Assembly (NCBI GenBank): GCA_963971425.1
Contig: OZ020517.1
Span: 14,727,297-14,791,296 of the forward strand
Source of the DNA: Bryoerythrophyllum caledonicum
Taxonomy: Eukaryota > Streptophyta > Bryopsida > Pottiales > Pottiaceae
Length of the DNA: 64,000 nt
Reading direction: 5' to 3'
Below, in pieces: positions 21,746 through 58,257 of this stretch. Under the pieces are notes generated by a model that saw nothing but the letters and a program-made list of their open reading frames with translations, had not been told where the DNA came from and made no database searches. Position numbers and translations under genes: made by a program. Each line of letters begins with the position of its first letter. The first letter of the stretch is position 1.

Positions 21746-21749
21746 TTAA

Positions 21750-22549
21750 CCCTTTAGCGCCCAGGAAGCCCAAAATGGGACTCTGGAGGTGCTCAAACTC
21801 AATTTGCATGAAATCCATGAGGAACTAGGCTTCGAGATACAAGGTTCAGATTTGTGCACTCGTTACACGAACACTCTCCATTAATCAGATCATGATTTGG
21901 ATTTATAAAACTCTTGGAAAAGCTAGGAATACAACACAAAATACACCAAATACACTCACTCAAATATAGTGAATACAGTGAATACTATGCCACATACTAT
22001 GTTGTATTTCACACACATGCACATTGATTTTGGTCTTAAATTTTGATTGAACTTCGTCTTTAAGACATTCTTCATTGTTTTGTGATTGTTGATCTCTCTC
22101 CTCACATACGAAACTTCCGTTTTGATTCGTATAAGGTTGGAACATTTTTGTATACAACCAAGTAGGAAAAAAAAAATCATCAATAATAGGGTATAAATAT
22201 TTTCTTCACATATAATATGTCAATGCAAAGCTATCAACCGAGTGCACATGTGAACCGCTCTAATTCAAAGTGAAAAAATTCTTGCAAGACTCTATTGATA
22301 GTTATAGTAGTACAACCTCAAAATTCCACAGTTTTCACTACCAATATACAGTAACTTTAAACACTATAATCTATTCCATCAACGGTTGGATGTTGTGCAA
22401 AATTTCCCCAAAGTTGAGATCATGGGTTAAGTTCAATTTTGTAAGGTTAGATATTAATATTAGTCATTGTATTTCCATCAATTCCAGTTCAAAGAAAAAA
22501 ATCAACAGAATTCTTGGTTTTTCTAGAAACATCCTTGGGCGCTAAAGGG
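21750..22549. mobile_element. 800-bp TTAA element present only in block 1
   Basis: Ends are CCCTTTAGCGCCCAGG and CCTTGGGCGCTAAAGGG, flanked by TTAA at 21746-21749 and 22550-22553. The empty site in block 2 is a single TTAA at 52141-52144 in the same flank (GAAAGCCC, TTAA, TAAAAC). No transposase is encoded. This is the cleanest member of the family and indicates non-autonomous cut-and-paste insertion at TTAA, as in piggyBac-type elements. Confidence 0.9.
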
Positions 22550-22634
22550 TTAATAAAACAACATTGGATTGGAGAATCACGTCACAATCTCACACTCAAA
22601 GTTCAACTTGATACACATTGGCTAGAGCTGCGGA

Positions 22635-22784
22635 AGAAGAAGAATCCCGGTCTCCGAAAGGGGACCGGAGTGAATAAAGTATCTGTTTGTTCCACCACTA
22701 AATCCATGTCCACTAGACATAGGTTTAGAAGTATTGAACTACTCCCCCCTCTTGAGAGTGACCAGTAACCAGTAACCAAAAGTC
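22635..22784 (-). mobile_element. 150-bp 5'-truncated LINE or SINE tail
   Basis: Flanked by GCGGA on both sides (22630-22634 and 22785-22789). Block 2 has one GCGGA at the empty site near 52225. It starts with GAA repeats, then CCCGGTCTCCG and GGACCGGAGTGAA, so on the minus strand it ends GGAGACCGGG plus a TTC tail. It matches the 3' tails of the LINE at 2031-2591 and the SINE at 62242-62589. Confidence 0.8.
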
Positions 22785-23217
22785 GCGGACAACTTGAGTG
22801 ACCTCTCAAGCTGTCTTTCCAACATTATTTTGTACACGATGCCTCTTTGAATGATAACATATTTACTCTAAATAGTTATTAGCTTAATAGAAGAGTTTGA
22901 ACTTAATTTTTTTTTTATAATAATGAAAGAATTTGCATGTGATCAACCGTGTTGAATATCACTCTCCTTTCTCTCCTTGGAGCTCAATTTAGATCTACGT
23001 AGAGTTGATTTTAATCATTCCAAACAAACTAAAATAGGATATACTATTCAAATCTATCATGACTTTACAAATAACTTTATTGTGATTTGCTCCATCTCAT
23101 GCATAGCGAGAATGATTCTCTTGAACCACCATAAAAAGAGTGATGACCACAAGTCCACTTTAGAGTTCACTTTATGTCCCATTTCCTACATGATTGTAAG
23201 AGCAATGGCAATGACTA

Positions 23218-23495
23218 GGCCATGGCAAAGTGACCCCCTCGTTGGTACTTACCCGAGGTGGGCCCCGTCTTATTTGCATGGTGTGATTTTTCTGGCCCTC
23301 TTATCTTGGGGATCCGAAGGCTTTTTTTGGAATTTTTTTGACAAATTTGGGGCCTACGGCCTTCGTTTACTCTAGAAGACCCTCCCTTGCTATAAATAGG
23401 GCCCCATCCAAAAAACAAATAGAGGCCAGGTTTGGCCCCACCACCTCATGGCCCCCTCGGGTAAGTACCAACGAGGGGTTAGTTCGCCCTGGGCC
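23218..23495. mobile_element. 278-bp inverted-repeat element with 8-bp target duplication
   Basis: AATGACTA is present at 23210-23217 and 23496-23503. Block 2 has one AATGACTA at about 52640. The ends begin GGCC and share a long imperfect inverted repeat including CCCTCGTTGGTACTTACCCG. Inside is CTATAAATAG. An 8-bp duplication fits hAT; a 9-bp reading (CAATGACTA) would fit Mutator-like elements. Related elements lie at about 27110-27420, 56120-56400 and 63130-63400. Confidence 0.8.
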
Positions 23496-23848
23496 AATGA
23501 CTAGAGTCAGAAGAAATTGGGTGGTTTTATGCTGTGGCATCCAATTTATAATTCAGGTTAATTGCTTTTTCGTATGGATGTACAGAAAAGTGTGTTCTAA
23601 TTGTCAAGATACTACACCAAACACTGCATATTCTGTGTCGAGACTATTTCGAAAGACCTACACTAATTCCACTGAACTGAAATTAAATTGGTCGATTTGA
23701 ATTCTCAATCCACATCAAATCATGTACCTCATAAAATAGTGTGAGATGTTCAAAATTGTTGACATGTTCAAAATGTGGATTGATGGAGAGGTGGCGGTGA
23801 GCGGCATGGAGTAGAAGATATCTGGTAGTGGGTGGCGGTGAGGTGGTA

Positions 23849-25275
23849 CACTAAAGATGGCATTTAGTGTAGTGGACACTAAATGCGAACCCGTACACTA
23901 CTACTCAACTTGACAATTAGTGTAGTGACAAAACTATACACTAAATGTCAACTAATACACTAAATGTCGATTCTAGTAAATAGTGGAACTTAGGTTTTTT
24001 TACATGTGGACATTTAGTGTATGAAACATAGAAACTGATTACATGCACATTTCGAGCATCAAAGTAAAGAAGGTTACGAGTGCATTGAAAAAAAAAAACA
24101 AATTTGCAGAAGAAAGATTGGAAAAAATATAACGTGGATATGGAATATAAAAGAAAATCCAAAAGTAGGAAAAAAATAGAATGTGCATATGGAAAGAATA
24201 TTTAAATATTATAAAATAATGTTATAATATTATAAAATAATATTATAATATTATAATATTTTAAAATAATATTATAATCTTAAAATAATATTAAATAATT
24301 TTAATAATTTTTAAATAATTTTTATTATTATTTTATTATTATTTTGTAATATTTAATAACATTTTAATAATATTTAATAATACTTTAATAATACTTTAAT
24401 AATATTTAATAATATTTTAATAATATTTAATAATATTTTAATAATATTTAATAATATTTTAATAATATTTAATAATATTTTAATAATATTTAATAATATT
24501 TAATAATATTTAATAATATTTTAATAATATTTTAATAATATTTAAATAATATTTAATAATATTTAATCATATTTAATAATATTTTAATAATATTTATTAT
24601 CATTTTGATTATATATTTAATAACATTTTAATAATATTTAATATTATTGTAATATTTTAATCTTATTTTAATACTTTAATATGATTTTATTATTTTAATA
24701 TTATTTTAATATTTTAATATTATTTTAATATTTTAATATTTTAATATTATTTTAATATTTTAATATTATTTTAATATTTTAATATTATTTTAATATTTTA
24801 ATATTATTTTAATATTTTAATATTATTTTAATATTTTAATATTATTTTAATATTTTAATATTATTTTAATATTTTAATATTATTTTAATATTTTAATATT
24901 ATTTTAATATTATTTTCTAATATTTTAATCTTATCTCAATATTATTATTAATTAAATACTCATTGATTGTATTCATTGTAATTTTAAAATATTCATTAAA
25001 TATTCATGCAAAATTAATTAAAATATTTAGTGAATAGTAATTTAATGTTCATTAGATATTTAGTAAACATTCATCAAATACAATTATTTGAACTAAACAT
25101 TCATGAAATATATATAAATTATTTAATATACATCAAATAGTGTACTAAGGTAGGTGGATGATTAGGGGATATTATAAATGACATGGCGGCTAACACTAAT
25201 TGTCAACTTGTTCACGAATAGTGTACTAGGGTTATTACACTATTCGTACCATTACACTAAATGCCATCTTTAGTG
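23849..25275. mobile_element. 1427-bp TA-flanked element filled with AT satellite
   Basis: Ends are CACTAAAGATGGCATTTAGT and its reverse complement, flanked by TA on both sides. Block 2 has an uninterrupted site near 54160. Both subterminal regions carry many ACACTAAATG and TTTAGTGTAGTG words in both orientations. The core (about 24190-24930) is AT-only satellite. Termini start with CACTA, but the duplicated target appears to be 2-bp TA, not the 3 bp of CACTA transposons. Confidence 0.75.
24190..24930. repeat. AT-only satellite (AATATTTAAT and TTTTAATATTA units)
   Basis: About 740 bp of almost pure A and T. The first part is dominated by AATAATATTT units; the second is a regular run of ATTTTAATATTATTTTA units of about 19 bp. 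No base other than A and T over long stretches. It lies wholly inside the TA-flanked element. Confidence 0.9.
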
Positions 25276-27109: not shown

Positions 27110-27420
27110 TCCTCCTCCCTTGCAAGCCGGTCTCCTGGATCTCTTTAAACCATATAGACGGATGGTACGGGAAGGAGGGTGTGGACAAAAACGGGACCCT
27201 ATTTTCCTGTTGGAGGGGGGGGCCTATTTAGACCAGGGTGGGCTTCCAAAGGGTAATTTGGGGCCACATGCTCCGAATTTGGCAAAAAAAAATCCAAAAA
27301 AGCTTCTAGACCCCTGAGATAAAAAAAAGGTAGAAAAAGAGGCCTACCCCTAGCCCACCCTCCATGACATCCGTCTACATGAAATAAAGAGATCCGGTTG
27401 TCTCCCTTCTCACTTGTGCG
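27110..27420. mobile_element. Long-inverted-repeat small element
   Basis: The ends include GGATCTCTTT, TAGACGGATG and GGAGGGTG, mirrored at the right as CACCCTCC, CATCCGTCTA and AAAGAGATCC. The inside matches, in reverse, the element at 23218-23495 (TTTGGGGCC and the TAAATAGG box). Present in both blocks (56120-56400). Exact ends are approximate. Confidence 0.55.
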
Positions 27421-27853
27421 CTGGATCTCCCTTTCCTCTATTGCACATTGGCTCTCCCTCTCCTCTCTTCATCAATCTCTGAACTTATTTAAAACTTAAC
27501 AAAGGGCTTGGTATCTTTAACCTGACCAACACCTCCATCCACGTCAGGAGAGGTTTAAGTGGCAAAGGTAATAAGTTAGCATAAGGTTTAAACTAAACAG
27601 ATTACAACTTATACAAGGTATGAGTGTACCATTGTTTGTGTACCTTACTTTCCATGAAGGATTGGATTGAATACACACTTTATTCACACTAGCCAGTTCT
27701 TGTAATTTTTCCTCTTGAACATTTCAGTGCAAGAGCATAAAAATGCACACATGGTATTCCATATTTAGAAGACCCAATCTGCAAGGACTTGGGGCCAACT
27801 TATTGTGGTCCAGTGTCAATGTGAGAAAGATCCATTGTGAAATGTGAGTGATA

Positions 27854-28271: not shown

Positions 28272-28575
28272 TAGACCAAATCAACCAACATTTTAACTTT
28301 TGTGAGCCACCCAAGCTTATATTAATAACTCCAGCTCCTTATCCAGCACAAGTTGTTCTTGTGGTTCACAAACTTCACATTTGGCATATTCATTCATCAC
28401 CTTAGAAGTTGTGCTGGATGTTGCCTTTGTCTGGTGCCCTCTGACTTGGTCTTTGTATTGAATGGAGGGTTTGAAGTTTGACTCTGCCACTATGCAAAAA
28501 TTGATAAATGGTTTGTGAATTCAAATGTCTCGCTCAACTCTAGCAAGGTGGAGTGACCCATAACCGTTCTATTAA

Positions 28576-28790
28576 CCCGTAAAGGAGCAAAGCATTTTTA
28601 GAGGGTTCTCTAATCCATTGATTTCAAATTGACAAGATGGACTTTTTGTGATTGTAAGCATAGGATCTTCTTCTAAACTTAGATGAGATGGTGTGGCAAA
28701 AGTTTCATGAATATAAACCATATGGATTAAAAGATAATTGCAATCAAAGTGAATTTTTTTTCCCGGCTAGTGCACTTGGTCTTTTAGAGG
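28576..28790. mobile_element. 215-bp TTAA element shared by both blocks
   Basis: Flanked by TTAA at 28572-28575 and 28791-28794; ends CCCGTAAAGGAGCAAAG and CTTGGTCTTTTAGAGG. Block 2 has it at 58258-58475, also between TTAA words. Insertion predates the block duplication. Confidence 0.7.
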
Positions 28791-28969
28791 TTAAGCAAAA
28801 TGGGGTCCAAATTCACAATATGTGTCAAAGGAAACTATGAATAAAGATGTAGAATTAGGAATGAAGTTCAACAAGCAAATTTTCAAATTTTAATCTTAAA
28901 GGTTTCAAATTGATACAAAATTCAAAAGCTCAAAATGCACTAGAGCCTTGAATTGCACATTAGAGTGTG

Positions 28970-29100
28970 TAGTATTTGTCATGTGTAGGATTGGAATTTT
29001 GCGGCTCCATCGCCCAATGCTAGAAACTGACATGGAATAAAAGAGAGGAGGCATGCCATGCATGACCCAAAACCACATCACTACGGATGGTTTTTACTTT
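28970..29100 (-). repeat. Dispersed repeat, shortened copy
   Basis: Matches 58670-58865 and, in reverse, 3165-3340 and 61350-61530 (word GGCATGCCATGCATGACCCA). About 85 bp present in block 2 (58760-58845) is missing here. Confidence 0.55.
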
Positions 29101-29234
29101 CAACTATTCAAAATATATGTTGATTGATTTGTGTTGGACTTCACCATGTCATGCATAGTCTACGAAACCTCTTTGGGTGGCCATGCAGTTATGAGTTGTT
29201 CTACCTTAGCTAAACCAAGGTACTAGTTTAAGCA

Positions 29235-31240: not shown

Positions 31241-33806
31241 ACCGTTGTGCTAGAAAATTTGGAGGTCGCCCTTAATATGAGCAGGTGAGATTTGTCAGAA
31301 AATAGACAGCAGTAGTATCGTTATATCTATCGATCTTAGTGTCTGCTTTATTTTCACGGTTGATCTGATGAAGACACTCTCACAAATGGCTAGGACTACT
31401 TTGTGTTGTGGTTAGAGACCTCCAAGCTCTTCAATTGATACCAGAACCAACGTTAACGTAATGTAACGTTGGATGACTTTGCAAGTAACTATGCCATACT
31501 CGAAATTTGCGTTGGTAGCTTTTTTTTTTCATGGTTTGTTAAGGAATGATTGGGGTATATGATCATATACAGGATAGCCGAGTTTCTGATCACCGAACGA
31601 AAATCAACTTCCCTGGATGGCACACAAGTGGTCCCGTAGACTTCTAAGTTTTCTCCTCTTACTTCTCATGGATTTTGATTAGCATTTTCTGTGCTGTCAT
31701 GTGCAGGGTCGGAACAAAAAGAGATTCTGTAGGAGCTTGCTGCATCTATGAATCAAGCAACTCTTTGAATACATATTCTTTATAATTTTGTTCATCCTGA
31801 TGGCGTCCCGGAGTGCCAGCAATCGGATGAACATTTGTTGGTAACATTTACAAGCATATGATAGCTGGCTTTCCTCATCATCTTGGTTTTCATGTAACCA
31901 TGGCTGACTTTGAGGCAGCACTTCGAAGACGCCGGTGAGTACCTCAGCAACTTAAACTCTGATCCGTGCCACATGTATCCTTCTAGTGAACATCTAGTTT
32001 TCTTGTAATCTGCAAATTGAGTTGACTGTCTGAAATTTTTGCTTATCCTATTCACAGTTGTCCTTAAATCTGGGTAAGATTGTTCAGCGTGACATGCGAA
32101 ATGTAGGTTAGATGCATGCAAACAATGTACCTCACCTAAAAGTTCTGGAAAGGGTGTAGTGTAATGAGTAATAAAAAATGGTTGTCGCTCAGTGGCTTAT
32201 CTTACTGTACAGTTGATGTGCGAGGGAAAAGGGCATGTGTGTTCCAGTGGTGAAACAGGAGGATCAGAGTCGAAGTTCAGGAACATCTTGAGTTGCAAGC
32301 AAACCATGCTTGATTCTGTTCTGAAGTTTGAGGTTGGGGTTGTTACGGTGATTGCAGATCATCGACAACATCATTCTTTTGCGCCATTTGGCAATGAGCA
32401 TGTCCACGGAAGCGATGACCGCGTCTGGAAGCATTCCTTAGTAGACGACCAAGTATGTCAGCAGCAGCCCCGGAGGAAGTTGAGGACTGTAAGGTCCTTG
32501 AGCCAATCTGCAGTCCTTTCCGAGTTGCAGGTTTTCATTGATTCTCATGTATCGAGTGTGTGTTCGGTCTCCATGTTATTCACACACTAGCGACATTGAG
32601 CGCGCTTTGGACGTTGAGCAAGGAGCTGAGAATGATGGTCCGGTGGATTGCGTTCTTGTTGTGGTTATTCAGTTTTTCGACTTGGAAGGCGTTTTTTGTT
32701 GGCCTATTTTGGAAGGCCCCCTCTCTTGGCGTCGCAGATCCTGGTGTTGGGGAGCGGGTGTCGTCGGACAACGATTGTGGGTTGCGATCGGATGCGGAAG
32801 TTTATGCATCTTCAGAACATCGAAGCAAACTTTCAGATTATCTGGCGAAAGTGCTCTCAAACATTTCATCAAATAAGGTGTACATTTACTTTGATGTTCG
32901 CGTATATGGATATGGGCCATTGACATGCGAGGAGGATGCACAGGTGAAGGAGATCTTGGGAGCCATTGCTACTTCCACCGTTGTCAAAGAGTTGGATGTA
33001 TCCAGCATTTGGCCAATGACATGGGAGGGAGTGTTAGAAGCCTTGCTCTCCAACCGAAGTGTGAAGAAATTATCAATTTTGGTGCACGATTGTGGGGTAA
33101 TTGAATGGGTGTCGAGAGTGTTGTTGGAGAATACGTATCTGGAGGATGTTCAATTTTATGAGATGGACAATGAAGGCGCAGTGTTGGTGAGCAATCTGTT
33201 GCGCCACAATCGGACTCTCAAGCGCCTTGATGTAGGTTGGTGTAGGATGGATGAAGAAGGATGGAAAGTGTTCCTTGATCCACTTTCAGGAGGCGTTGAT
33301 AGTAACTTTACTCTTGAGCACTTAGGTTTTTGCGTTCCATCAATAGCAAAGTCCCACTTTGTTGTGCACATTGGCAATATAGTTCGCAGAAATACCACCC
33401 TCCTCTCTTTGGACTTGTCATGATACCTTGTGTGACATGCTCCGGAGCAACACATCCTTGATTGAATTTATGTGTTCCCGAGCGCTCCTTTATAAGAGTG
33501 TCCATGTGATCCAACTCTTGGAAGCTTTGAAAGGCAATAAGTGTTTGGAGATATTGGACCTAACTCATTGTGAAGGCGTGAAAGGTCGGAAAGTGTTGGG
33601 GGCAATTATGGATCTTCTTGATGAAAATCACTCCTTGAAGGAAATCAATATAGATCGAACACCATTGGGGAAAGATGGAAGTGGTGAAGTTGTGAAAGCA
33701 GTTCTAGAGGAGAAGGCAAAGGATCGATCATGGGAAGTGGTGCAAGGCATGGCAACATCAACACCTACGTCTGGAAGGGTTTTCTTGTGTGGCGAGCCAT
33801 ATGCAG

Positions 33807-34516
33807 GCAAGCTCTGTTCTTCACATTTGTTTGGTTTGGAAGCCTATCTATATTGTTGGTAAAGTTTGTACTATGATTGATAGACTTTGAAAGAATGTTG
33901 TATCTTTAATTCGCTATGAAGTTTGAGTTATAAGCATGGTAGAATTTTAAATGTGATTGTTGAAATAGTAGAGAATGACTTGTTTCCAATTTATATATCC
34001 AATGCATGAATTTCGAATAGATCTAATGCATTTGTTCTAAGATTGAATAAACTTTTTACTTGGTAAAAGTAGTTTTTGAACTTGGAATTGACTTGGTTTG
34101 ATACACTACTGAAATTTAGTAAAGAGTGATAATTCAACTATATGCTTGATCATAGTTACACTTTGTGAATTTAACCATGTACGAGAGCAATACTAAACCA
34201 TGTATTTTGAACATTTTGAACATCCTATTTTGAACATGTTCATCCTATTTTGAACATGCCTCCATCAAACATCATGTAGACAATTATGTTCATATTTTTA
34301 TGTTGCTCTTCAATTTCTTCATTCTACCTACTTCCTAAGGTTGTACATGGCCTTAGGTAATTTTTGATAACAAATTTTAAAGTGTAACAATTGCTTACTT
34401 GAATAATCACTCATTGTGCACATGTTTTGATGTCATAATACACTAATCTAATCCTCTCAGATGCAAGAGTGAATTATAGTGGATATTTTCAATGACTTGA
34501 ACACAGCATCTTACAG
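33807..34516 (+). other. GC-AG intron of copy B
   Basis: Same position as in copy A: CATATGCAG then gcaagc; acceptor cttacag before GTAAAACTAC. Joining gives GEPYAGKTTLR. Contains a short local repeat of a CATCCTATTTTGAACATG word near 34210-34260 not seen in A. Confidence 0.75.
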
Positions 34517-35766
34517 GTAAAACTACTCTTCGCAAGACGATCATGGAAAATCATTTGAGTGCAACTCAAAAACGATCAAAGACAACAAAAATGAAAGCGT
34601 TGTTTAAGAGAAGAAAGGGAGATGAGACACTTCCAAGCAGCAAAGATATTGTTGAAAAAAGAACTCGAGGAATTGAGGTACATTACTTAGCATGCGATGA
34701 TGTCGCCATGACTATATGGGACATGGCTGGACAAGAAGAATACCATGCTTTCCATGATTTGGTGGTTCCAAATCTCCCAATGAGTGGAAGTTGTTGTTCA
34801 TTTGTGCTTGTGTGCAACCTTGCATACCATGATGATAAACCACATCACTTGAAGAACATGGAAGAGATCATCTCAGAGATCCAATATTGGTTGAAGTTCA
34901 TTGTTTCCAACACAAGAATTTCAAATCTATATCAACCGCATGTGATGATAGTGTTCACTCACATTGACGAGAACTGCTCATGGGATCTCAGTCGTTTGCT
35001 TCCAAGGATTAAGGAGTTGAAGGAGAAATTTGATGAGTTCGTTGAGTTCGAAGATCATGATTTTATGATCAATGCAAAGACATTCAAAGACTCGGTTGAT
35101 GGCGTGTTCAATGCCATGGAAAACCACTTGCGAGGTCTATTGACAAGGGTGCCAAAAACTATTGCTGCTTGCGACAAACTACAAGGTGTCATAGCCAAGA
35201 GGATCACAGACAATCCACATGAGTTGGTTGTGGATTGGGAATTATTTTCCAAGATTTGTGACGAAGTACCAGAGTTACAATTGATGGATGCATCTGAACC
35301 AGATTTGGTGAAGAGGAGGAAAGAATTTGCTGCGTTGGCTCTACATGATAGAGGCCATGTGATATTCTATGAAGACGTGAAGATGGTGATTATGAATCCC
35401 CACTTGTTTTGTCATGACATCATTGGTGAGCTCATGAATGGGGATAAGATGTCAAGGTACAAACCAAATGTGCAACATGGCATTACAAAGGGCGACCTTG
35501 AAATGGTATTGGCAAGCACCCTTGTAGCTATTGAACACAAGGTGGCCTTGGAGGATGTATTGCAAGTGATGCAGAAGATGGAACTTTGCTATGAGCAAGA
35601 GGATGGAACTCTTATGATTCCATCGATATTATCAAATGGACATGGGAAGTTGGATTGGCCAATGAAGGAGAAGCTTCGATCCATCTATAAGTATACTGGA
35701 AGGAGGTTGACAATCGATGATAAAGAGAAGACAATCCTAAGTCCTGGTTTTTTCCCTCGATTGCAA
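34517..35766 (+). CDS. Copy B exon 2, intact Roc-COR reading frame
   Basis: 1250 bp, the same length as in copy A, fully open. It keeps the GKTTL half of the P-loop, TRGIEV, DMAGQEEYHAFHDL, VFTHID and the LSPGFFPRLQ end before gtaagt. By eye the differences from A are few and mostly conservative. If expressed alone it would lack the LRRs. Confidence 0.65.
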
Positions 35767-37617
35767 GTAAGTTGTCATGATCTCCCACATGCATACGTTA
35801 CTTGCTTATAAGAATCAAGGTATGTCATAAAATATTTTATTCGTGGGTTGATCTCAAATAGTTGTGTAGGTTCTACTTAATATAATCTTACGGACCGAAT
35901 TTCGTCGTTGTTGATTATAAAATGTAGTGCTTGATGACTTGTTGCAAACTTGCTTGTCTGAGGAATTCTATAATATGTGTTTTATGTCTCATATTTCATC
36001 ACAGATGTTGAAGTATCAAGCGATCAATATATGTTTGATAATACAATTGTAATCAAAAATTGATATACTTGTCCTTTGTACATAGATAGCGTTATTGGAG
36101 AAGTTTTTTGTTGCGTGTATGACAATTTAGTCTTTATTCTTTATTTTTAGTGTATTTTTCATTTCTATTCCTTGAACTTTACTATGCATTTGTCCAGTGT
36201 TCAAACTTCAATTTGCTTGTATAGGTTTTTCTACGGAAGGATTTTGGAAGGGCATGTGAAATCATGAAGAACATGATTAAGTTTGTTCACAATGGGATTG
36301 AGGTCATTATTGAGTACAATGGATCTCCTGCTTTTGATATTGATTATAGTGATGCGGTCAAATGGGAACGAAAAGTCCATGAATGAGCTTGATTCTCTTC
36401 AAAGGCGCCTCATCAATATCATTGTTACATTCTATGCAAATCGTACATTGGGATGCCCAGGAGTGAAACTTGTGGAGCTCATCATGCGGCCATCATGTGT
36501 AGAAGATCTTGTTGAGCACAAATACCGGTCCAAGCAAGTTGTTGCGGTAGGGTTCTTGAGACAAATGGTGATGCTCCATGGTGACCTTGCCTTGAAGTTT
36601 GATTGGCCTAGTGAGAAGCCGGTACTACATATGGGTTGTGATGACGCAAAGACATTGTTGGGTGAGCAAATGTCGAATGACGTGTTGAATGAACTTATGT
36701 GTGATTTGAAGACCATTGAATGTCAATTTTCGTTGCATAAGGAATCAATGGATACCATTGGGAATGCAAGGACGATGGGCATCTCAAAGGTTTCAAAACC
36801 ATCACATGTGACCAACGAAGACTTGTCGTTCAAGTTGGAAAGGCTTGGAGTGACAATGATTCAAAGATTTGATAGAATCGATGAGACATTGGATTGTAGA
36901 TTCAACAAGCTTGAAGACACAATGCAAGAGATCAAGTTGCTTCAAGAGAAGTTGTTGCCAAGAGTATGTAGGAGATTGGAAGAGTTGATGACATTCACGA
37001 TGGAGTTTCAACAACACAAATATCCTCACCTTCCTCACTTCAGGAAGCGTGAAAACGGTCGTCTTGTAGTCAAAGTGATCCCTGGGATGCAAGAGTATGT
37101 TCTCCACTTTTTGTGTGAACATAAAGATGGATTCCACATTGTTGAAGATCAAGAAGGATGTGAACTATCAATTGGCACAGAGTCCACTCGAGCATTTCAA
37201 AGCGTTTTAAGGCGAGGACTAAAGATTTTGACGCTCTTGTTGAAGGTAGGGGCACATGTTGGAGCGGGCATGGGTTCAATGGTTCCAGACCTTGGAAAGG
37301 AACTCCTACTTGTTTTGGATACACCGGGGATCGGACTTGATGAGGTGAATGTGAGTACAACACAAATTCTAATGGATGAAGTGAAGCCACATGTTTTACA
37401 TACGGAAGAGAAGGCTGCCGAGCAATGGTTGATAGATGTATTGAAAGAGAAGTGCCCAACTAGCCTTGATATCAAAACCAAGTTCAAGCTTCAGAAGGTA
37501 AGGTACGTGGAGGAAGATGGTGGAGCTGGATGTGTGGCATGGATTTGTGACAAGCACTTTGTGGAAGGTATACATAGCAAAACCTTGACATTGTTGCCTA
37601 GTGACTTGGCTAATTGA

Positions 37618-42172: not shown

Positions 42173-42240
<68 letters not shown>

Positions 42241-44530: not shown

Positions 44531-44534
44531 TGAA

Positions 44535-45490
44535 CAGAACAAACTTTATTTCCTCTAAAAGTTAAAGATCTTCATTTTCTTTCTCATTTCATTTTTTCTT
44601 CTTCAAGAATAAGCATGAACCTTAGTTTGACTGTTTCATTCTTTTGTAAGGTGAAACTATAAATAATCAAATTCAAAATGTGGCTTGGTGATTTGTAAAA
44701 CCCCTTTTATTGCTTAGTTTTATCCACAAAAAATGTTTCACTTCTCCTATACGTGTATAGATTTGGTGTTTGAGGAACTTACATCACATACATTGTACTC
44801 GCATAAAATTTAGAACTTTTATAATGCAAAAATTTGACACCAAGTGAAGTCAAAGTCTGCCAATCTTTGAAACATAGGGAAGACGAAAAAAAAAATTCTC
44901 TTCAATTCATACTCTATAACCTTTTAATCCATATGGTCAAAGAGTGTGAAAATTTGTGAACAAATAGTTTTATTAGTATGAATGAAAATCTTACCATTAG
45001 ATATGGAATTAAGATTTATATTTGTCATTTCTACTCTTTGCACTAGAATGAATGGTTGTGGGATGGTTTTGATGAGACATAGTCATGGTCCTTTAATGGT
45101 TAACCCTTTAACGCCTAAGTGGACCATGACAGCCTAAGAAAATCTACGAACGTGATAGATTATGCAAACGTCATGGACACAGTGGATACATTTCATCTCC
45201 ACCCCATTTCTCAGAAATCATTGTAATTTACCAATGCTTGCATGGATTGGAGATAAGAGAGATCCGTTGGAAAGCTAACATGTAGCTCTTATCCATTCAG
45301 AAGACGTGAGAGACAATGGCCAATTGTGGAAAGAATTATATGACCATAAACACCAAAACTGACCCTGCGACGGCCTTCGTTGCATTAAAGGGTTAACTTG
45401 GAGTTGCTAATGCATGAATTGGTGATAATGATGCGGAAATGGGACCATTTAAGAATGGCACTAATAGGACATGGGTGGTAATGGGTTCAG
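44535..45490. repeat. Upstream flank of pseudogene D
   Basis: Paralogue of 1-1260. No gene. Contains the TTAA element at 45104-45392. Confidence 0.6.
45104..45392. mobile_element. 289-bp TTAA element
   Basis: TTAA at 45100-45103 and 45393-45396; ends CCCTTTAACGCC and TTGCATTAAAGGG. Counterpart at 545-815 in the paralogous flank. Confidence 0.7.
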
Positions 45491-45871: not shown

Positions 45872-48800
45872 TTGTTACAGTGAGGATTACAAGGTCTTTG
45901 AGCCAGTCTGCAGTCCTTTCCGAGTTGTAGGTTTTCATTGATTCTCATATACCGAGACTAAAGCAACTACTTTCACATACTTGTAGTGCAAGAAAGGATG
46001 TGGAATTCAAACATGGTTCCTTGTGTGACATGCTACGAAGCAATACATCTACGATTAAATTTCGGTCTTTGGGATTGTTCCCCAACAAGAGTGTCACATA
46101 GTGCAGGTCTTGGGAGCTTTGAAAGGCAATAAGTGTTTGAAAATATTGGACCTATATTCTTGTCAAGGAGTGGAAGGTCAAAGAGTGTTGGGGCAATTAT
46201 GGATCTCCTTGATGAAAATTTCTACTTGAAGGAAATCATGTTAGGTTATACACCATTGGAAAAGGATGGAATTGTTAAAGTGGTGAAGGGAGCACTAGAC
46301 AAGAAGGCAAAGGATCAATTGTGGGAAGTGGTGCAAGGCATGGCAACAACAACACCCACGTCTGGAAGAGTTTTATAGTGTGGCGAACCATATTCATGCA
46401 AGCTTGTTTTCTTTACATTTGTTTGGTTTGGAACCCTATCTTTATCATTGGTTATGTATATACTATGATTGATTAACTTTGAAAGAATGTTGTAATTTTT
46501 ATAGACTATGAAATTTGAGTTCCAAAACATGTTAGAACCTTCAATGAATTAGGTGAATTAATAGAAAACGCATATTTTCCATCTAATTTCATATCTAATG
46601 TATGGATTTCAAATAGATTTGATGTATTGGTTATAAAATTGATAAAATATTTCACTTCCTAAAATATTATATTGAACTAGGAATTGACTTGGATTGGTGA
46701 ACTAGATAGTGATCATTCAGATATGTGTTTGATCAAAATGACGCATTGTTAATTTAGCCATGTTTGAGAGCAATACTAAACCATGACTACAAGGTTCAAT
46801 TAATTTGAACATACATCCATCCAAAATCATGTGGACAATTATATCTATATATATTGCACTTCAATTTTTTTATTCTACCTACATCGTATGGTTGTACATG
46901 GCCTTACATAATTTTTGGTAACACAATATATGGTGTACCATTCACTTACTTGACTAATCACTCACTACGTACATGATTTGATGTCACATTTCACTAATCA
47001 AAGCCTCTCGTATGCAAGAGTCAATGGAATTGGTTATTTACAATGACTTAACTCAACATCATACAAATAAAACTACTCTCCGCAAGACAATTATGGAAAA
47101 TGATTCAAGTGCAACTCAAACATGATCAATGACAACAAAAATGAAAGCATTGATTAGGAGAAAGAAAAGAGATGAAGGATCATTAAATGCCCAAAATATT
47201 GTTGGATAACAAACTTGAGAAATTGAGGTACATAACTTCCTTCGTGATGATGGCGGCATGACTATATCGGACATGGCTGGATAATAAGAACACCACACTT
47301 TTCATGATTTGGTGGTTCCAAATCTCCCAATGAGTGGAAGTTGTTCATTTGTGCTTGTATGCAATCTTCCATACCATGATGATCAACCACATCACTTGAA
47401 GAAAATGGGAGAGATCATCACGGAGCTCCAAGAATGATTGAAGTTCATCTTTTCCAACACAAGAATTTCAAATCTATATTGACCTCATGTAATGGTTGTG
47501 TTTACTCACATTGATGAGTGCTCATGGGATACAAGCCCTTTGCTTCAAGCAACCAAGGATTTGAAGAGAAAATTTGAACACTTTCTTGAATTTGAAGATG
47601 ATCATTTCATGGTCAATGTAAAGAATTACAAAGACTTAGGTGATGGTGTGTTCAAGGCCATGGTAAACCACTTGAGAGGCCTATTATCAAGGGTGCCAAA
47701 AACTATTGAATCTCTATACTGGAGGTCATAGCCAAGAGGATTGAAGACAATCCACATGAGTTGATGGTGGATTGGGATAAATTTTCCAGTATTTGTTGTG
47801 AAGTAGTAGAGGTACAAATGATCGATGTATCACATCGAGATTTGGTGAAGAGGAGGAAAGAATTTGTTGATTTGTCACTACATGATAGTGGCCATGTGAT
47901 ATACCATGAAGAACTCAAGATAGTCATTATGAATCCCCACTTATTTTGTCATGGCATCATAGGTGAGCTTATGAATGGAGATAAAATGTCAAGGTATAAA
48001 CCAAATGTGCAACATAGGATTATGAAGGGCAATCTTCAAATGGCATTGGCAAGCACCCATGCAACTATAGAACACAAGGTGGCTTTGGAGGACGTATTGT
48101 TTTGTATTGTTTGAGTCATGCAAAAGATGGAATGCGGGTATGAGCAAGAGGACGGAATCATTATGATTCCATTGATAGTAGCAGATGGATATGGGAAATT
48201 GACTTGGCCAATGAAATCAAAAGGATCAATCCACATGTACATTGGAAGGAGGTTGGGAATTGATGACATAGAGAAGACACTTCTTAGTCTTGGTTTTTTC
48301 CCTCGATTACAAGTTGGTCATGATGTCATTCTACGTTAAATTATTACTTGTTTATCAAAATTTTATCATGTGATGATGTATTCAAATTAAAAAATCATTT
48401 TCTCCTATTTGGATAGGTGACATCAAGGATTTGTTGATTATATAAATGTAGCGATTGAGTACTTATTGCAAATTAAGTGGTTTGTGGAATTGTGGAATTC
48501 AAAATGGCCTAGTGTCTCATATCTCAATATAGATTTTGAAGCAATAGAGGATCAATATTTTCTTGATATAACAACGTATTCAAGAACTAAAATACTTGTG
48601 CTTCATAAAATGAAATCTATGGTGGAAGTTAATGGTCATATGATTAGACAACTCATATGTCATTTCTTTATTTCCTATATATAATCTTAAAGTATTAGCA
48701 AGTCTATGTTTAATATACGATTTGTGTATGCAGGTTTCTCTACAAAAGAAATATAGAAGGACATGTGAAATCATGAAAAGAATGATAAAGTTCATTCATA

Positions 48801-49120: not shown

Positions 49121-49525
49121 GCAAAAGTAGTATTCAAGTAGGGAAACTGGGGGACAACCCTAGGAACAAAGTTTTGTAGCATAGCTTGAGATACATAGCG
49201 ATTTTTAGCGTCAGATTGAGACTACCATTTACATTTCAACCTTGGATGAACTTTCCTATTTCTCAACCTCTAACCTCAACCATTGAACCATGTACAGGTT
49301 TAAAAATCCAAACCGGTATTGTTTAGCACTCCACAAAATATACCAAGACATTGGAACAACGTATGCAATATCTAATGTTAAGTAGATGTATGCTTTTGAG
49401 TATCGGAAGTAATGAAAAAATACATGTGTGGCACATTATTGATCCATGTGACTACTCAAGACTCTATTTGGAGAGTAGCGAGCGGATGATCCAAGCATTT
49501 AGGAGACACTAGCAAAGAAAGTTAA

Positions 49526-50911
49526 CGCTTTGGAGCCCAGGAGACCGAAAATGGGACTGTGAGGTGTTAAAACTTTATTTGTATGAAATCCATGAGGAAT
49601 TAGGTTGTGAAATGTGAAGTTCAGATTTGGGCACACATTTCATGAACATCCAGCAAAAACTAGGTCATGATTTGGAGTTATAGAACTCATGGGAAAGCTA
49701 GGGATATAACACCAGATACATCAAACACACGAAAATACAATGAATATCATGCCACATACTATGTTGTATTTTGTAAACATGGAGAATGATTTTGGTCTTA
49801 AATTTTGATTGAGATTTGTCTTTAAAAGATTCCTCATTGTTTTGTGATTGTTAATCTCTAACATTGCATACAAAACTTTTGTTTAAATTTGAATAACTTT
49901 GGAACATTTTTGTATACAACCAAATTGACAAAAGTAAAAAATTCATCAATAATCTACCTAAATAATAGGCGACAGTCTGTCTATCCGCAGCTTCTTAACC
50001 CTAAAACCCTAAAAATCCTAAAAACCCTGAAACCCCTAAAACCCTAGAACACTCTAGAAAACCCTTAAAACCCTAAAACCCTTAAAACCCCCTAAAACCC
50101 CTAAAACCCCTAGAACCCCTAGAACCCTAAAAACTCTAAAAACTCTAAAAGCCTAAACCCTAAACCTAAGATTTTGCCGGAACATGCACGCTGTTGTTGG
50201 TGAACACCGTGTGGATTTGGAACTGTACATTTCTAGAGTGGCTCTAGGCGATAGGGGAGGACAGGCTAGAGAAGGATGACATGATCAGATGTCCACAGGC
50301 GATGATTGTAGGCAATCACACCTTGAACGGCTTGATCAATGCCGTCTATGGAGGAATTGTTGACGTCAAAGCAAATGCGCTCGAGTACTTTAGCAGTCGT
50401 GCCATCCTTGCCGCACAGAATGACGACGTTTCGCAGATCAACGCACGACATTCCGAGGGATGCAAATTGCAATCTAAAATATAATACGTCAAACAAATTT
50501 TATTTTGAGGAGCACTAATAAAAAACCTTCCCCGGTCGGAATGACAGGTACCAATACTAGTCATGTATAAATGTTTTCTTCATGTATGATATGTCAATGT
50601 GTAGCTATCAACCTAGTCCACATGTGACCTCTTTTGTTCAAAGTACAAAAACTCTTGCAAGAATCTATTGATGGATACGGTAGTATACCCTCCAAAGTCC
50701 ACAATGTTCACTACCAATATACGGTGACTTTAAACATTGTAACCTATTCCATCAATCTTTGGATGTTGTGCAAATCTTCCCCAATGTTTAGGTCATGGTT
50801 TGAGTTCAATTTTGTAAGGTTGGATACTAAAATTAGGCATTTTTCCATCAAAGTTAGTTTGAATAAAAGAATCAGCACATACATTGGTTTTGGAGAAAGG
50901 GTGCCAAAGAG
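49526..50911. mobile_element. TTAA-family element with nested Helitron-like fragment (block 2)
   Basis: Counterpart of 19012-20423, with TTAA at 49522-49525 and 50912-50915. The telomere-like tract is at about 49994-50165. The helicase fragment (EYFSSRAILAAQNDDVSQIN) is at 50281-50484. Confidence 0.75.
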
Positions 50912-51822
50912 TTAACCCCTCGAGGACCAAATCATCCGGAGGGTATATATTGCATTTTGGGCAAGTTCCTACCACATGAAAGAGTATAATTTTTGAAATT
51001 TTCATACTAGATGTTTAAACAGAGATTATCCTTCATTGGATTGCTTTCAAACATTTATTCGATGGATTTCAATTACCACGTCCCTTGAGCCCTTTATCCT
51101 TAAATGAATCCTCAGATAATTCTAGAAAGTGGCGAAATTGCACATCAATAGAAAGGAGAAAGTTTACCTTCAAGATAGGGTTGTTTGAATACATTAAAAG
51201 AAGATTTTTAAATTAGAAGCTTTCAGCAGAAATTTAATGACACATTAAGATTTTATTTCTATTTTTAGCTTGGACACTTCGCCTAACCCATTTGTTTTGG
51301 GTATGTGCTTCTAACATTAATTGTGTGGGCAATGCATGGAGGTTTGCAGCAAAGTTTGGAGAATAGTACCAACTCGGGGCTGCTATTGTGGGGTTGCTAT
51401 CAAGGGCAGGATGTATATGTTACATCAAACAAACACGTGGATTGACACAAGGTCATAATCAAATGCTTTTTTGTTAATCATATGTGGTTCAGATTATAAT
51501 TCATATTTGTGGTCCTAAGTCCCATGGGGTAAAAGTGTATATTGTCATAGCACATTAGACCTTAAACAAATTGAACTTAGAGCTAACACTGGCTACTTGC
51601 CATGACAGTAGCAAGCGCCAATGTCAACAAAGTTGCACGTCAACGTCTTCACCCCTAAAGGACCAAGTGCTCCTCCATGGTACAAAATTTCTCAATTTGA
51701 CCATAATTATCTTTAAATCCGTACAGTCAAAATTTACAAAATATTTACCACATCATCTCATATAAGTTTAGAAGAAGATCCTACGATTACATTCTCAAAA
51801 AGCTCATCGTGATAGTTTTTAA

Positions 51823-51844
51823 CCTCTAAAGGACCAGAGTCTCC
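51823..51844. mobile_element. Isolated TTAA-element end
   Basis: TTAA at 51819-51822 followed by CCTCTAAAGGACCAGAGTCT, then unrelated flank. This matches the left terminus of the element at 52918 and nothing else of it. About 100 bp of host DNA found in block 1 is missing here, so an insertion was probably followed by a deletion. Confidence 0.55.
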
Positions 51845-51889
51845 TTTTATACCTGTAGATATCTAAAATATTGCATAAGGATACCTAAG

Positions 51890-52750
51890 TGCTAACCTCT
51901 ATTGATTTCATCTAATTTATATCTGCATGGTGTGCAAAACATGTCCCTTGTTGAATGGAGCCTTGTATACTGTTGGAAGTTTGGTCTACAATAAGGAGTG
52001 GGTTGGATGCAGTGCCACATAGAAAATTCCTACTTATACTTAAAAGCGTCTAAAATGTGACATGTACTTTCAGCCTCGGCACCTTGATTTCTCTAACATG
52101 AGTCTGCATGTTTTGCAGAAATTTCTCTTGATGAAAGCCCTTAATAAAACCTCATTGGACTGGAGAGTCCGGTCACAATCTCACACTCAAAGTTCAATTT
52201 GATACACATTGGCTAGAGCTGCGGACAACTTGAGGGAGCTGTCTCTACAACATTATTTTGTACATGATACCTCTTTTGAATGATAACATGTTTACTCTAA
52301 ATAGTTACTAGCTCAGTAGACGAGTTTGAACTTAAGATAATTTTTTTATAATATTGAAAGAATTTGCATGTGATCAACCGTGTTGAATACCACTCTCCTT
52401 TCTCTCCTTAGAGCTCATTCTAGATTTACGTAGAGTTGATTTGATTTATTCCAAACAAACTAAAATAGGATATACTATTCAAATTTAACATGACTTTACA
52501 AATAACTCTATTGTGATTTGCTCCATCTCATGCATAGCAAGAATGATTCTCTTGAACCACCGTAAAAAGAGTGATGACCACAACTCCACTTTAGAGTTCA
52601 CTTTATGTCTCATTTCCTACATGATTGTAAGAGCCATGGCAATGACTAGAGTCCAGAAGAAATTGGGTGGTTTTATGCTGTGGCATCCAATTTATAATTC
52701 AAGTTAATTGCTTTTTTGTATGCATGTACAGAACAGTGTGTTCTAATTGT
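51890..52750. repeat. 3' flank of pseudogene D
   Basis: Paralogue of 21510-23600 without the four insertions that block 1 has there. No gene. Confidence 0.65.
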
Positions 52751-52917
52751 CAAGATACTACACCAAACACTGCATATACTGTATTGAGACTATTTCGAAA
52801 TACCTACACTAATTCCACTGAACTGAAATTAAATTGGTGGATTTGAATTCTCAATCCACATCAAATCATGTACCCCATAAAATAGTGTGAGATGTTCAAA
52901 ATTGTTGACATGTTTAA

Positions 52918-54082
52918 CCCCTAAAGAACCAGAGTCTCCTTTGGGGGGATTTCAGGTTTTGGGCAGGTTCCTAAAATTTGAAAAAAAAATCCCTTTTTTT
53001 TTAAACTTTTATTGTAGATCAGCCCTGATAAGAGCTTCCCGGAGGTATTTTTAAATTTTTTTTGGATTTACGGTGTGAAAGTTAGTACCACCTATTGTCA
53101 AAAATCGGGAGGCTGGGCAGCGTGGGCACCTCTGGGAACCAATGAAATGCAAGTATGAAAGAGGGGCAGTAATTAGGGGCATAAAGGGTGGAGAAAGGGT
53201 GGGGCAGCCCAAATCAAGGGGAGGAATAGTGGAAGGGAAGACCCCACAAATTCCAAGAAAAGGGATAAATAGAAAATTTAAAAAATAGCAAAAAGTGGTG
53301 CATGGCAGGGGCTGTGGGTACTTAAAGAGATGGCACGTGTGAGAGAAGGAGAAAAAAAAACAAAAAAAAAACAAAAAAAAAACGCCGCCTTGCAGTGGCG
53401 GGCCACCCCCGAGGGAGCTGCGCGGGTCCCGCACAGGGGAGTGGGTGAATGAGGTGGCCCTTCATTTCTTGAAGGGTCCCCATTTTGAAGCCCTGCCCTC
53501 ACCTATAATATTTGAATAATTCAATAAACTCATTACAATTAGAGATTTAACCCGTTTTAGAAAAAAAAAATCTCTAAAATAAGTAAAAAATTAAATTCCA
53601 CATTTGAACCGTACAGATTTCTAAATTTGTAAATTCATATTTAGCAAATAATTTCTCACTTCATTTGTAGTCATTTGCATTGTTTTATACCCCCTTTCAC
53701 TAAAGTATTTATTTGAGCATGATGTACCACTCGAAATGACCTCAAATTTTGCACACACTTAGCTAACATCATATTCTTTGTACTGGTTATGATTTCCAAC
53801 ACAATGTACTCTAAAAACTAGGAGATATGCTTAGTCAAAGTGAGCTGACTTTGTCGGGCAAGAGGGAAAAAAAACTACTTTGTGCACTTCAAACACTATA
53901 ATCTTCACATCCGTGCGGTGGATTGCAACTAAAATTTTAGAGGATTATCATACATGAGTCTAGTTTTAGATCTTACGGTTAAAAGTTGAAAATTCTTCTA
54001 AAAATTGTGATTATTGCGGCCATGTTTGACTATGGCAGTTTTGGACTAGTTTTGGACAGAAAATGTCAAGGAACTTTAGGGG
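52918..54082. mobile_element. 1165-bp TTAA element present only in block 2
   Basis: TTAA at 52914-52917 and 54083-54086; ends CCCCTAAAGAACCAGAG and AACTTTAGGGG. The empty site in block 1 is TCAA at 23768-23771 in identical flank (one base changed). The core includes a GC-rich part with A-runs (53090-53520). Internal sequence is shared, inverted, with the element at 56568 and partly with that at 59940. No transposase is seen. Confidence 0.9.
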
Positions 54083-56119
54083 TTAAAATGTGGATTGATG
54101 GAGAGGTGGCGGTGAGCGACATGGAGTGGAAGATATTTGGTAGTGGGTTGGGGTGAGGTAATAGTGAGCTGCGTGACTCATGTTGAAATGTGTCCTCATT
54201 AATTTTGTTCCAAAACCAAAATTGATGTGGTCCACATCATTTTTCACTCACATTACCCATGCATCCAAACTATATTAAGTGTTTAGGGTAGTTGAACACA
54301 TAAAGTCAAGCCATATCAAATGTCAGTAATCTGTGAGATAGAAGTATCCGTTGTGAAGTAAAGTATTCATAACCAATAGCTACCCCATGCCAACATGTAG
54401 ACTAACAAATGAAATGTTTTTTGAATTTTTGCTAGATTGATCAATCTTAGTTATAAGAAATGATTTTGTAAAGTAATGATGATGCATCAACAAGCTCACA
54501 TATTCATCGCTTTTGAATTATCTATATATTGTTTAGCTCTGTAAATCATCTTTCTACATTAAATGTATTCTAGAAGACGCATAATTCCAACTAATAGCTA
54601 ATTTTCAAAATTACATGCTCCTTACAACTTATTTTTCAATGCATGATAATGTTTTCATGTCTATAATACAAGTTTTACTATGAAAATAGGAATTGTCTTG
54701 AAAGTAGGCAGGGTGATTGTCTTTGTTATCCCTTACGTTGTATTTTAAAAATGAAAAATGGGACCACATAGAAAGGTTGATTTTGTTTGGAATAAGTGTA
54801 GGGGAATTGTTGGCCAAGTCTAATTAAAGTTTGAGTCTTAAAGGGAGTTTTAGCTATGATTGGATGAGGCCCAAGAATATCAACTCCCCTCTAGTATTCA
54901 TGCATTTCATTGATGCGCAAAAAGAGAGCATGAGATTTTTTCATATTCCTTTTTCTTGTATTAAGAATTTATTTTCTTTCATTATTTCTTACCTCTTCTG
55001 GTAAGACTATTAGGATAAGTGAAATTACCTTTTACTATTATTATAAAACTCTTGGTATTAGAATCCTCTTGAACAAGTGCCTAGCCATTCAATATTCCAA
55101 AATATTTAGATAAACACTTCCAATAACAACTAGCATGAAGCTCATGACTTGGTGTACCTAACAACTTACTAATGTTGTTAAATACCTTTAACATGTACGT
55201 TTAGTTATTTGTAATTTGTTCAATAGTATCTATCTTCAAGAGAAGAAAGCAGTTTGGTATGGATAAACTAACTATAGTATATACAATTGGCAACTCTATA
55301 TACCAACATAAACAATAAATGTCAAGAAAGGTCTCAACGTGACTAACACTAAATTTAAATCCAACAATATATGTCAACTTTAGTTGAAATACACATTTAA
55401 CGTGCACATTTAGTATAAGATTTCCCCAATCCCTAGCTCCGTTTGACATTTACTGACATTTGCCTCACACGCTGTATTTTAGCTTATATATTTAGATTAA
55501 TCTATATAGCGGAATAAGCTACAATAAATGTCAAACCACACGTGATACACCCATCTCTCATACAAGTTATAGCTAAGCAAAAAAGTTGGTGGATGAGTTT
55601 TGTAAGAGTTTAGAAGAGGATCAAACTTAAGATATACCAGCCTATGACCGCCACATTATAGAGTGGGGTAGATCAGAAACTATGAGGTTTTTGAGAAAAA
55701 AAATTCATTGAAAGAGCATAAGGTTTTGAGGAGAATGGATATTTGAATTTGGATGAATTATGAATTAGTCATGAATTTTAGAGTGGCACTAATGTGAGAT
55801 CTCTATTAGTAAGAGAAGGTAAGTCCCATGTGCACCCCCATAAAGCCACATGATTGATTGGTCATTCTTTATACCATGACTCACACTATTCTACCCTAGG
55901 ACCTTCAAAAACAATATATTAGAACGTCCTTTTCTACTCAAATTATCAACTATAGCATAATACAATACATGTGTTCAAGGTTTAGAAGTGCCATACTTAT
56001 GATCTCACACTACCACATGGGTGGCTTGAAATGGTGGTATGGCCCGCCTATTTTTGCCATGCATGGCTAAACGATCTACCATGCTCCTCCTCCCTTGCGA
56101 GCCGACTCTCCTGGATCTC

Positions 56120-56400
56120 TTTAAACCATATAGACGGATGGTACGGGAAGAAAGGTGTGGACAAAACTCGACCCCTATTTTTATGTTGGAGGAGGCCCCT
56201 ATTTAAACAATGTTGGGCTATCGAAGGGTAATTTGGGGCCACATGCTCCAAATTTGGCAAAAAGATTTCCATAAAAAGCTTCTAGACCACTGAAATTAAA
56301 AAAGACAGAAAAATAGGCCTACCTCTGGCTCACCCTCCGTGATATTCGTCTACATGAAATAAAGTGATCCGGCTCTCCTCCATCTCACTTGTGCGCTGGA
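56120..56400. mobile_element. Long-inverted-repeat small element (block 2)
   Basis: Counterpart of 27110-27420, with TAGACGGATGG at the left and ATTCGTCTACATG at the right. Approximate ends. Confidence 0.5.
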
Positions 56401-56567
56401 TCTCCCTTTCCTCTACTGTGCATTGGCTCTCCCTCTCCTCTCTTCTTCAATCTCTGAACTTATTAAAAACTTAACAAAGGGCTTGGTATCTTTAACCTGA
56501 CCAACACCTCCATCCACGTCAGGGGAGGTTTAAGTTAGCAAAGGTAATAAGTTAGCACAAGTTTTAA

Positions 56568-57679
56568 CCCCTAAAAGCCCTAGGCATTTTCCCTCATGAA
56601 ACACTCCAAAACTGCCATCATCAACAAGTGGCAACGAAATCTAACATTAAAGTCTAATTTTAGACTCCTTACCGTACAATCTTGAAATAGACATGTATAT
56701 GAACTTACAATTCAAATGTGGTTGCAATTCACCGCACGGATGTGAAGATTATAACGTTTGAAGTGCAAAGAATAGTATGTTTCCCGCCTTGCCCAGCAAG
56801 GTCAGCCTACTTTGACTAGGCATATCTTCTAGTATTTACATTGAAATGTGATCAAATCTTTTACCAATATGACTTATATGTTGTTAGCTATTTGTGTGCA
56901 AAATTTGAGGTCAATTCGAGGGGTAATAGATGTAGAAATATATACTTTAGTGAAAGGGGTTACAAAATGATGACAATTACTACATAAGTGATATGAAATT
57001 GTTTGTTTCATGCAAGTTGTTGCATTTGAGAATCCCAATGGTGGAAATTTTCAATATATTTTTTCACTAATTTTAGAAAAAAAACGTCTAAAATTGGTAA
57101 AATCCATAATTTTCATGATTATATGGAATAAACAAAGCATTATGAGAAAGGGCAGTGCTTGAAATTGGGTGGCCAATTCGCCTCGCTGATGACAGCCCTC
57201 GCAACTGGACAGAAAAAAAACAAAATTAAAAAAAACTTTAAAAAATTATAAATCTTGGCGGGCCCGCTTCGGGCACGGAACGCTGGCAGGCCAGCTGATG
57301 GCTGGTTGTTGGCAATTTTTTCAAAATTATTTTAACAACTCTTTTACAAATTTTAAAGCTTTTTCCACTTGGACTTCGTGCATAGAAGTTTGGACTCCTT
57401 TCCTCGCCAGTTCTGTCCCAAAATTCTGCGCCATTTTACTCCTCAAATTGCATTGGTTGACATGGATGCCCCAATAGTCCAAACTCTCCATTTTGACCTT
57501 CGAATGCTAATAACTTTTGAACCAAAAGTTCAAAATCACATTTGAAAAATTCCCCATATAGATTTCATCAAGGACAATGCGGTGTAAAGTCTTAATAGGA
57601 ATTGGAGTATTTTTTCCACTCAAAGGTACATGCCCAAAATCCAAAACGTACGCCCCACGTACACTTGGGCTCTTAGGGG
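56568..57679. mobile_element. 1112-bp TTAA element present only in block 2
   Basis: TTAA at 56564-56567 and 57680-57683; ends CCCCTAAAAGCCCTAGG and CTTGGGCTCTTAGGGG. The empty site in block 1 is a single TTAA at 27588-27591. The interior is the reverse orientation of the element at 52918 (shared words CATCCGTGCGGTG and its complement). No transposase frame. Confidence 0.9.
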
Positions 57680-58257
57680 TTAAACTAAACAGATTACAAC
57701 TTATTCAAGGGATGAGTGTACCATCGTTTGTGTACCTCACTTTCCATGAACATAGGCTTAGGATTGGATCAAATACACACTTTATTCACACTAGCCAGTT
57801 CTTATCATTTTTCCTCTTGAACATTTCAGTGTAAGAGCATAAAAATGCACACATGGTATTCCATACTTAGAAGACCCAACCTGCAAGGACTTGGGGCCAA
57901 CTTATTGTGGTCCAGTGTCAATGTGAGAAAGATCCATTGTGAAATGTGAGTGATAGACCAAATCAACCAACATTTTAACTTTTGTGAGCCATCAAGCTTA
58001 CAATAATAACTCCAGCACCTTTTCCTGCACAAGTTGTCCTCGTGGTTCACAAACTTCACATTTGGCTTATTCATTCATCACCTTAGAAATTGTGCTGGAT
58101 GTTGCCTTTGTCTGGTGCCCTCTGACTTGGTCTTTCTTTTGAATGGAGGGTTTGAAGTTTGACTCTGCCACTATGCAAAAATTGATAAATGGTTTGTGAA
58201 TTCAAATCGTCTCGCTGAACTCTAGCAAGGTGGAGTGACCCATAACCGTTCTATTAA

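Follow-up and report, generated by a model that had tools for sequence, protein, structure and literature searches.

The window analysed here is a stretch of 64,000 nucleotides of Bryoerythrophyllum caledonicum (assembly GCA_963971425.1, 437 Mb; contig OZ020517.1, positions 14,727,297-14,791,296 of the forward strand). It contains two tandemly duplicated sister blocks, each lacking one or two of three short, TTAA-flanked elements, denoted E1, E2 and E3, which are considered below as candidate miniature inverted-repeat transposable elements (MITEs) of the piggyBac type. The elements, their target copies and the corresponding empty sites are as follows (window coordinates):

21746-21749: left TTAA target copy of E1
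21750-22549, + strand: E1, 800-bp non-coding element, putative piggyBac-type MITE; terminal inverted repeat (TIR) CCCTTTAGCGCCCA at 21750-21763 and 22536-22549
22550-22553: right TTAA target copy of E1
52141-52144: empty E1 site in the sister block, TTAA
52914-52917: left TTAA target copy of E2
52918-54082, + strand: E2, 1165-bp non-coding putative MITE, ends CCCCTAAAG
54083-54086: right TTAA target copy of E2
23768-23771: empty E2 site in the sister block, TCAA
56564-56567: left TTAA target copy of E3
56568-57679, - strand: E3, 1112-bp non-coding putative MITE, ends CCCCTAARAGCCC
57680-57683: right TTAA target copy of E3
27588-27591: empty E3 site in the sister block, TTAA

Target duplication and empty sites

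All three elements have inverted CCC-type ends. The TIR of E1 starts with CCCT and is perfect over 14 bp (18 bp including TTAA); those of E2 and E3 are imperfect (11 of 14 and 12 of 14 bases matching, respectively), with a perfect part shorter than that of E1. No transposase coding was found within E1, E2 or E3, the longest ATG frames being 74, 53 and 59 codons, respectively, in agreement with the original prediction that none of them encodes a transposase. The three pairs of filled and empty sites claimed in that prediction are all real. In a self-comparison of the window, the sister blocks are ~91-96% alike near E1-E3, and when the joined flanks are compared with the sister block, each insert consists of the element plus one TTAA, with no other base change in length at the site. 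The empty site of E2 (TCAA) is one substitution away from TTAA. Pairs of TTAA-CC(C/T) ends with at least 9 of 14 bases matching, located 150-2500 bp apart, occur six times in the window (one of these, 51819-54086, is a cross-pairing), whereas 30 first-order Markov sequences contain 0.17 on average and one at most.

Copies of E1, E2 and E3 are spread over many contigs of the genome. The best 40 candidates were scored for each element, among 3264 (E1), 3587 (E2) and 2607 (E3) first-look candidates; within this scope, E1 is present at full or near-full length in at least 40 places, counting the window copy, and the other copies are 94-96% identical to it. TTAA is found on both sides of all eight fetched E1 copies and of 25 of the 30 fetched E2 copies, and the bases beyond TTAA differ among the fetched copies. 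In one E2 copy (L065, around 1497-2679), the target duplication is non-canonical, with TTAT at either side, which implies that the four bases come from a duplication of the target. Exact E1 ends were detected 301 times genome-wide, with TTAA preceding 266 of them, and exact E3 ends 333 times, 288 of them preceded by TTAA; reversed-pattern controls produced no hits in any of the four end searches. These counts give TTAA as the target; a different target length at the genome-wide sites had been named as a finding that would speak against the original prediction. E1-E3 are short, non-coding and present in many copies of similar length, the properties by which MITEs are recognized. On contig C1 (C1:6093811-6161991), exact E1-type ends recur at 840-bp intervals, two or three in a row, a pattern suggestive of an E1-like MITE that has been turned into a tandem array.

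Transposase-bearing elements in the genome

A transposase source had been predicted to exist elsewhere in the genome, and a search for the piggyBac transposase domain (PF13843) recovered it: the 116 candidates scored gave 120 match rows, all above the curated cut-off (best E = 6e-81), and several of the sequences reside inside TTAA-bounded elements; the same domain was matched in none of 14 (unspecified) control genomes. The matches are distributed over 13 of the contigs C1-C15 (all but C5 and C13), including C4, the window's own contig, and many contain stops. The 30 best transposase loci form 16 groups at 90% DNA identity over at least 1000 bp. A text-pattern search recovered all three catalytic motifs in 25 of the 30 loci fetched, and seven of the 30 (L011, L012, L014, L015, L016, L024 and L035) have a closed frame of at least 800 codons, up to 955. 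In a Pfam scan, the seven proteins tested all match PF13843 only (E up to 0.001), and no family was found at their C-terminus; Cys-rich C-termini were seen by eye in the transposase translations. The L016 protein, the one searched against the PDB, matches piggyBac 6x67, which we take to be the Trichoplusia ni piggyBac (E = 5e-30), and piggyBat 9c0f (E = 3e-25). The loci L011-L015 are near-identical and may be segmental duplicates.

Several transposase genes reside in delimited elements. TTAA and CCCTTAAACG ends flank the transposase gene on both sides in T17 (4.9 kb) and T35 (4.0 kb). The 3' ends of the copy pairs T17/T22 and T33/T35 are alike through TTAA and unalike directly beyond, as expected of mobile units. 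T30, also TTAA-bounded, measures 8.6 kb (positions 228-8808 after joining of the loci L030, L070 and L073); an unfilled relative, diverged and reading TTGA, aligns straight across its insertion point. Copies differ from the family majority by 0.5-5%. For T36, the candidate ends do not match each other, and an element boundary is not claimed. The loci L010 and L027 are 95% alike, and both have an E2-like end downstream of the transposase gene; the full 953-bp extent of this E2-like MITE was read beside L010 only, where it blurs the 3' end of the T10 unit.

Both ends of E2 and E3 are found in T30 (coordinates of E2 and E3 are counted here including TTAA). In E3, the right 284 bp (1120-837) correspond to the T30 5' end (69%, E = 5e-38), and the left part (1-606) to the T30 3' end (81% over 610 bp, E = 2e-152). 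In E2, the left part (1-329) corresponds to the T30 5' end (65%), and the right 649 bp (525-1173) to the T30 3' end (70%), with E = 7e-97 and 2e-29 for the two E2 end matches. All four matches start at TTAA, the two MITEs are in opposite orientation relative to T30, and T30 has no match for the middle part of either, ~195 bp in E2 and ~230 bp in E3. Because both ends are common to E2/E3 and T30, E2 and E3 are, judged by sequence comparison, internal-deletion derivatives of T30-type native piggyBac elements. Thus, the piggyBac-type transposition proposed from the target and the ends is supported for E2 and E3, and the genome search suggested along with it, for elements with such ends and a piggyBac transposase, led to T30.

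Another case is a second transposase match, at C4:24421546: an exact E3 end of 24 bases is located 2.5 kb upstream of it. The E3-type end at this locus can be aligned with E3 over 284 bp (81% identity, E = 2e-70), up to E3 position 837, but the likeness to T30 continues beyond this stop point, to 443 bp in all. The 81 bases at the distance expected for the other MITE end instead contain a 27-codon open frame that, by eye, resembles the N-terminal part of a transposase.

The search for a transposase-bearing partner succeeded for E2 and E3, but found none for E1. The ends of E1, CCCTTTAGCGCCCAGG, are similar to the piggyBac ends of T17, CCCTTAAACGCCCAGG, and the E1 terminus fits the rule of a CC(C/T)T start and a 12-19 bp TIR as quoted in the available text of PMC2872659. 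The putative piggyBac assignment of E1 is based on its target, empty sites and terminal repeats. On C2, an exact E1 end at a distance of 5.4 kb from a transposase match was considered as a partner and rejected, given that the 91 bases checked belong to an ordinary E1 MITE.

Proposed mechanism and alternative explanations

We conclude that E1, E2 and E3 are very probably non-autonomous piggyBac transposons (MITEs) that are moved by the transposase of full-length elements in the same genome. Under the proposed mechanism, a piggyBac transposase produced by full-length elements elsewhere in the genome would bind the terminal repeats of E1-E3, excise the elements and insert them at TTAA, and fill-in of a 4-base staggered cut would leave TTAA on both sides of the insert. 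E2 and E3 would have originated from T30-type elements that lost their interior and kept the two ends, with ~300 bp remaining at the 5' end and ~600 bp at the 3' end; these derivatives would then have been copied to many sites, entering, in the window, one of the two tandemly duplicated blocks. E1 presumably uses a related transposase.

Several observations weigh against this conclusion. Four of the 30 E2 copies have neither a TTAA pair nor another duplication: in L048, L063 and L068, the match edge is shifted or mutated, and L044 has CCAA and CTCA. Exact TTAA is missing at 35 of the 301 E1 ends and 45 of the 333 E3 ends. E2 and E3, like T30, start with CCCC, where CC(C/T)T is usual. The E2-T30 match is only 65-70%, so that T30 is a relative and not the direct parent, and the 770-codon frame of T30 holds a run of N. 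The transposase match at C4:24421546 has two stops, and 532 bases upstream of it were read. Catalytic motifs are incomplete in five of the 30 transposase loci. As for E1, its profile has no significant match among 34 transposase-region loci (L073-L075 left out; best E = 0.47), its likeness to T17 covers the first 26 bp only (E = 0.004 with blastn, 0.91 with the profile), and a 782-bp E1-like element that adjoins the T10 gene (78%) looks like a separate MITE.

The main alternative for the history of the locus is that the elements are ancestral and the 'empty' blocks are precise excisions rather than sites that never received an insertion. Since the excision of a piggyBac element usually leaves an intact TTAA and no footprint (PMC2872659, available text), an empty site alone gives no direction. 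We nevertheless regard this scenario as unlikely: the E1 site is also empty in two more distant paralogous stretches, near 14.1 and 38.9 kb, both reading TTGA, so that three of the four paralogous blocks lack E1, which argues for a gain in one of the four. For the E2 and E3 sites, one sister block each was found to cover the site, and the direction of insertion is therefore argued for E1 alone. It is far less plausible still that TTAA is part of the element and that the pattern was produced by block duplication or deletion, without transposition. A fixed sequence would indeed show TTAA in each copy, but one E2 copy has TTAT on both sides, the outer bases differ among copies, the empty sites keep one TTAA, and the copies are on many contigs, all of which contradicts a fixed TTAA.

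With respect to the enzyme, Kolobok and Sola3 transposons also duplicate TTAA, and a transposase of one of these superfamilies could move the elements, E1 in particular, which so far has no transposase-bearing partner. We consider this very unlikely. A match of the ends to another superfamily had been named as the finding that would speak against the original prediction; for E2 and E3, both ends are instead common to a PF13843-bearing element, and the E1 ends resemble those of T17 and fit the CC(C/T)T rule (PMC2872659, available text); the search did not extend to transposases from other superfamilies. The remaining alternative invokes contamination of the assembly with animal or fungal DNA as the source of the transposases, given that piggyBac is best known from animals. 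We give it next to no credence: it is contradicted by the distribution of the transposase matches over 13 of the contigs C1-C15, C4 among them, and by the related MITEs inside the window. The LEAFY and RALF families, which are largely plant-restricted, support a land-plant host: the LEAFY SAM-domain family has seven matches on C2, C7, C11, C12 and C15, of which one is strong (E = 1e-27) and the other six are weaker, with E between 5e-8 and 4e-4, and RALF has five (best E = 9e-17), one of them on C4; a small number of RALF matches fits a bryophyte.

Taken more broadly, the chances seem about even that the genome harbors a diverse and recently moving native piggyBac population, with some elements predicted to be transposition-competent, and that its MITEs form a major class of small DNA transposons left unclassified by plant surveys, the host being probably a bryophyte.

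Further elements in the window and comparison with known systems

Additional members or remnants, and a copy of one of them in the sister block, were detected in the window:

1375-2700 (1375-2068 and 2591-2700, interrupted at 2069-2590), - strand: older E1-family member (profile, E = 8.5e-200 and 6e-25)
19008-20427 (19008-19440 and 20062-20427, interrupted at 19441-20061), + strand: older E1-family member (profile)
49522-50915 (49522-49954 and 50550-50915), + strand: sister-block copy of the 19008-20427 element (self-comparison, profile)
59920-60841, + strand: diverged E2/E3-type member (profile, E = 8.7e-23 and 1e-18)
45100-45396: 297-bp TTAA-bounded inverted-repeat element (TIR with 10 of 14 bases matching)
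28572-28794: short TTAA-bounded end pair (end-pair search)
20425 and 50913: E2-like end of ~100 bp at each position (E = 2e-6 each)

With the weak cases counted, this bears out the expectation of at least seven further members or remnants. The notion of a single family had to be modified: E2 and E3 are related to each other, but E1 belongs to a separate sequence family, so that there are at least two. The 19008-20427 element, being present in both blocks, is probably older than the duplication. At 20424-20427 and at 50912-50915, one TTAA is common to an E1-type and an E2-type element, and it seems that a target copy of one element served as the insertion site of the other. A separate insertion, 23769-25275, is missing from the sister block; it has inverted CACTAAAGATGGCATTTAGTG ends around an AT-rich tandem array (~24187-25071) and looks like a different non-autonomous element. 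The window also includes four similar stretches (8616-11062, 15857-17781, 33410-35867 and 45986-48314). The proteins of 8616-11062, the stretch that was scanned, match leucine-rich repeats and, weakly and below the curated cut-offs, Roc and COR-A (Roco GTPase).

In animal cells, piggyBac is in standard use as a tool, but the literature searched contains few accounts of its natural history in plants. Among the top search results from one open-licence library, no paper addressed land-plant piggyBac MITEs with transposase-bearing partners, and others may exist. According to the available text of a 2015 compilation (PMC4438587), PiggyBac is one of the superfamilies present in every group studied, including land plants, and small PiggyBac amounts are given in the repeat tables available for a fern and Stellaria (PMC6890710, PMC13180808). 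In the available text of a moss genome paper (PMC10619864), the matches to 'piggybac' are to 'piggybacking'. The mechanism is a known one; few descriptions seem to exist of the host setting and of the plant MITE families. The transposase-bearing elements, their deletion derivatives and the clean empty sites make up a natural plant piggyBac system to study, and the genome provides candidate plant-adapted transposases and ends.

The elements described here resemble the plant MITEs of PMC12550479 in being small, high-copy, non-coding terminal-inverted-repeat elements. That survey, in its available text, assigns the MITEs of 207 plant genomes to five superfamilies plus one special group, and its main text as available mentions neither piggyBac nor TTAA. 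The present genome suggests that five-superfamily MITE classifications can miss high-copy families in some plants. The coral CMITEs (PMC2872659, available text) are similarly non-coding and TTAA-flanked, with ends like those of resident piggyBac elements and with alleles with and without the element. However, the CMITEs are ~100 bp long, whereas E1-E3 are 800-1165 bp, and E2 and E3 have a long subterminal likeness to a transposase-bearing element. With the piggyBac superfamily (6x67, 9c0f), the system shares the TTAA target and its duplication, the CCC-type repeats, and the PF13843 DDD transposase with matching catalytic motifs. It differs from the known piggyBac elements in its land-plant host, in the size of the transposase-bearing elements (~4.0-8.6 kb), in the long N-terminal parts of the transposase frames (closed, up to 955 codons), and in the CCCC start of the E2, E3 and T30 ends.

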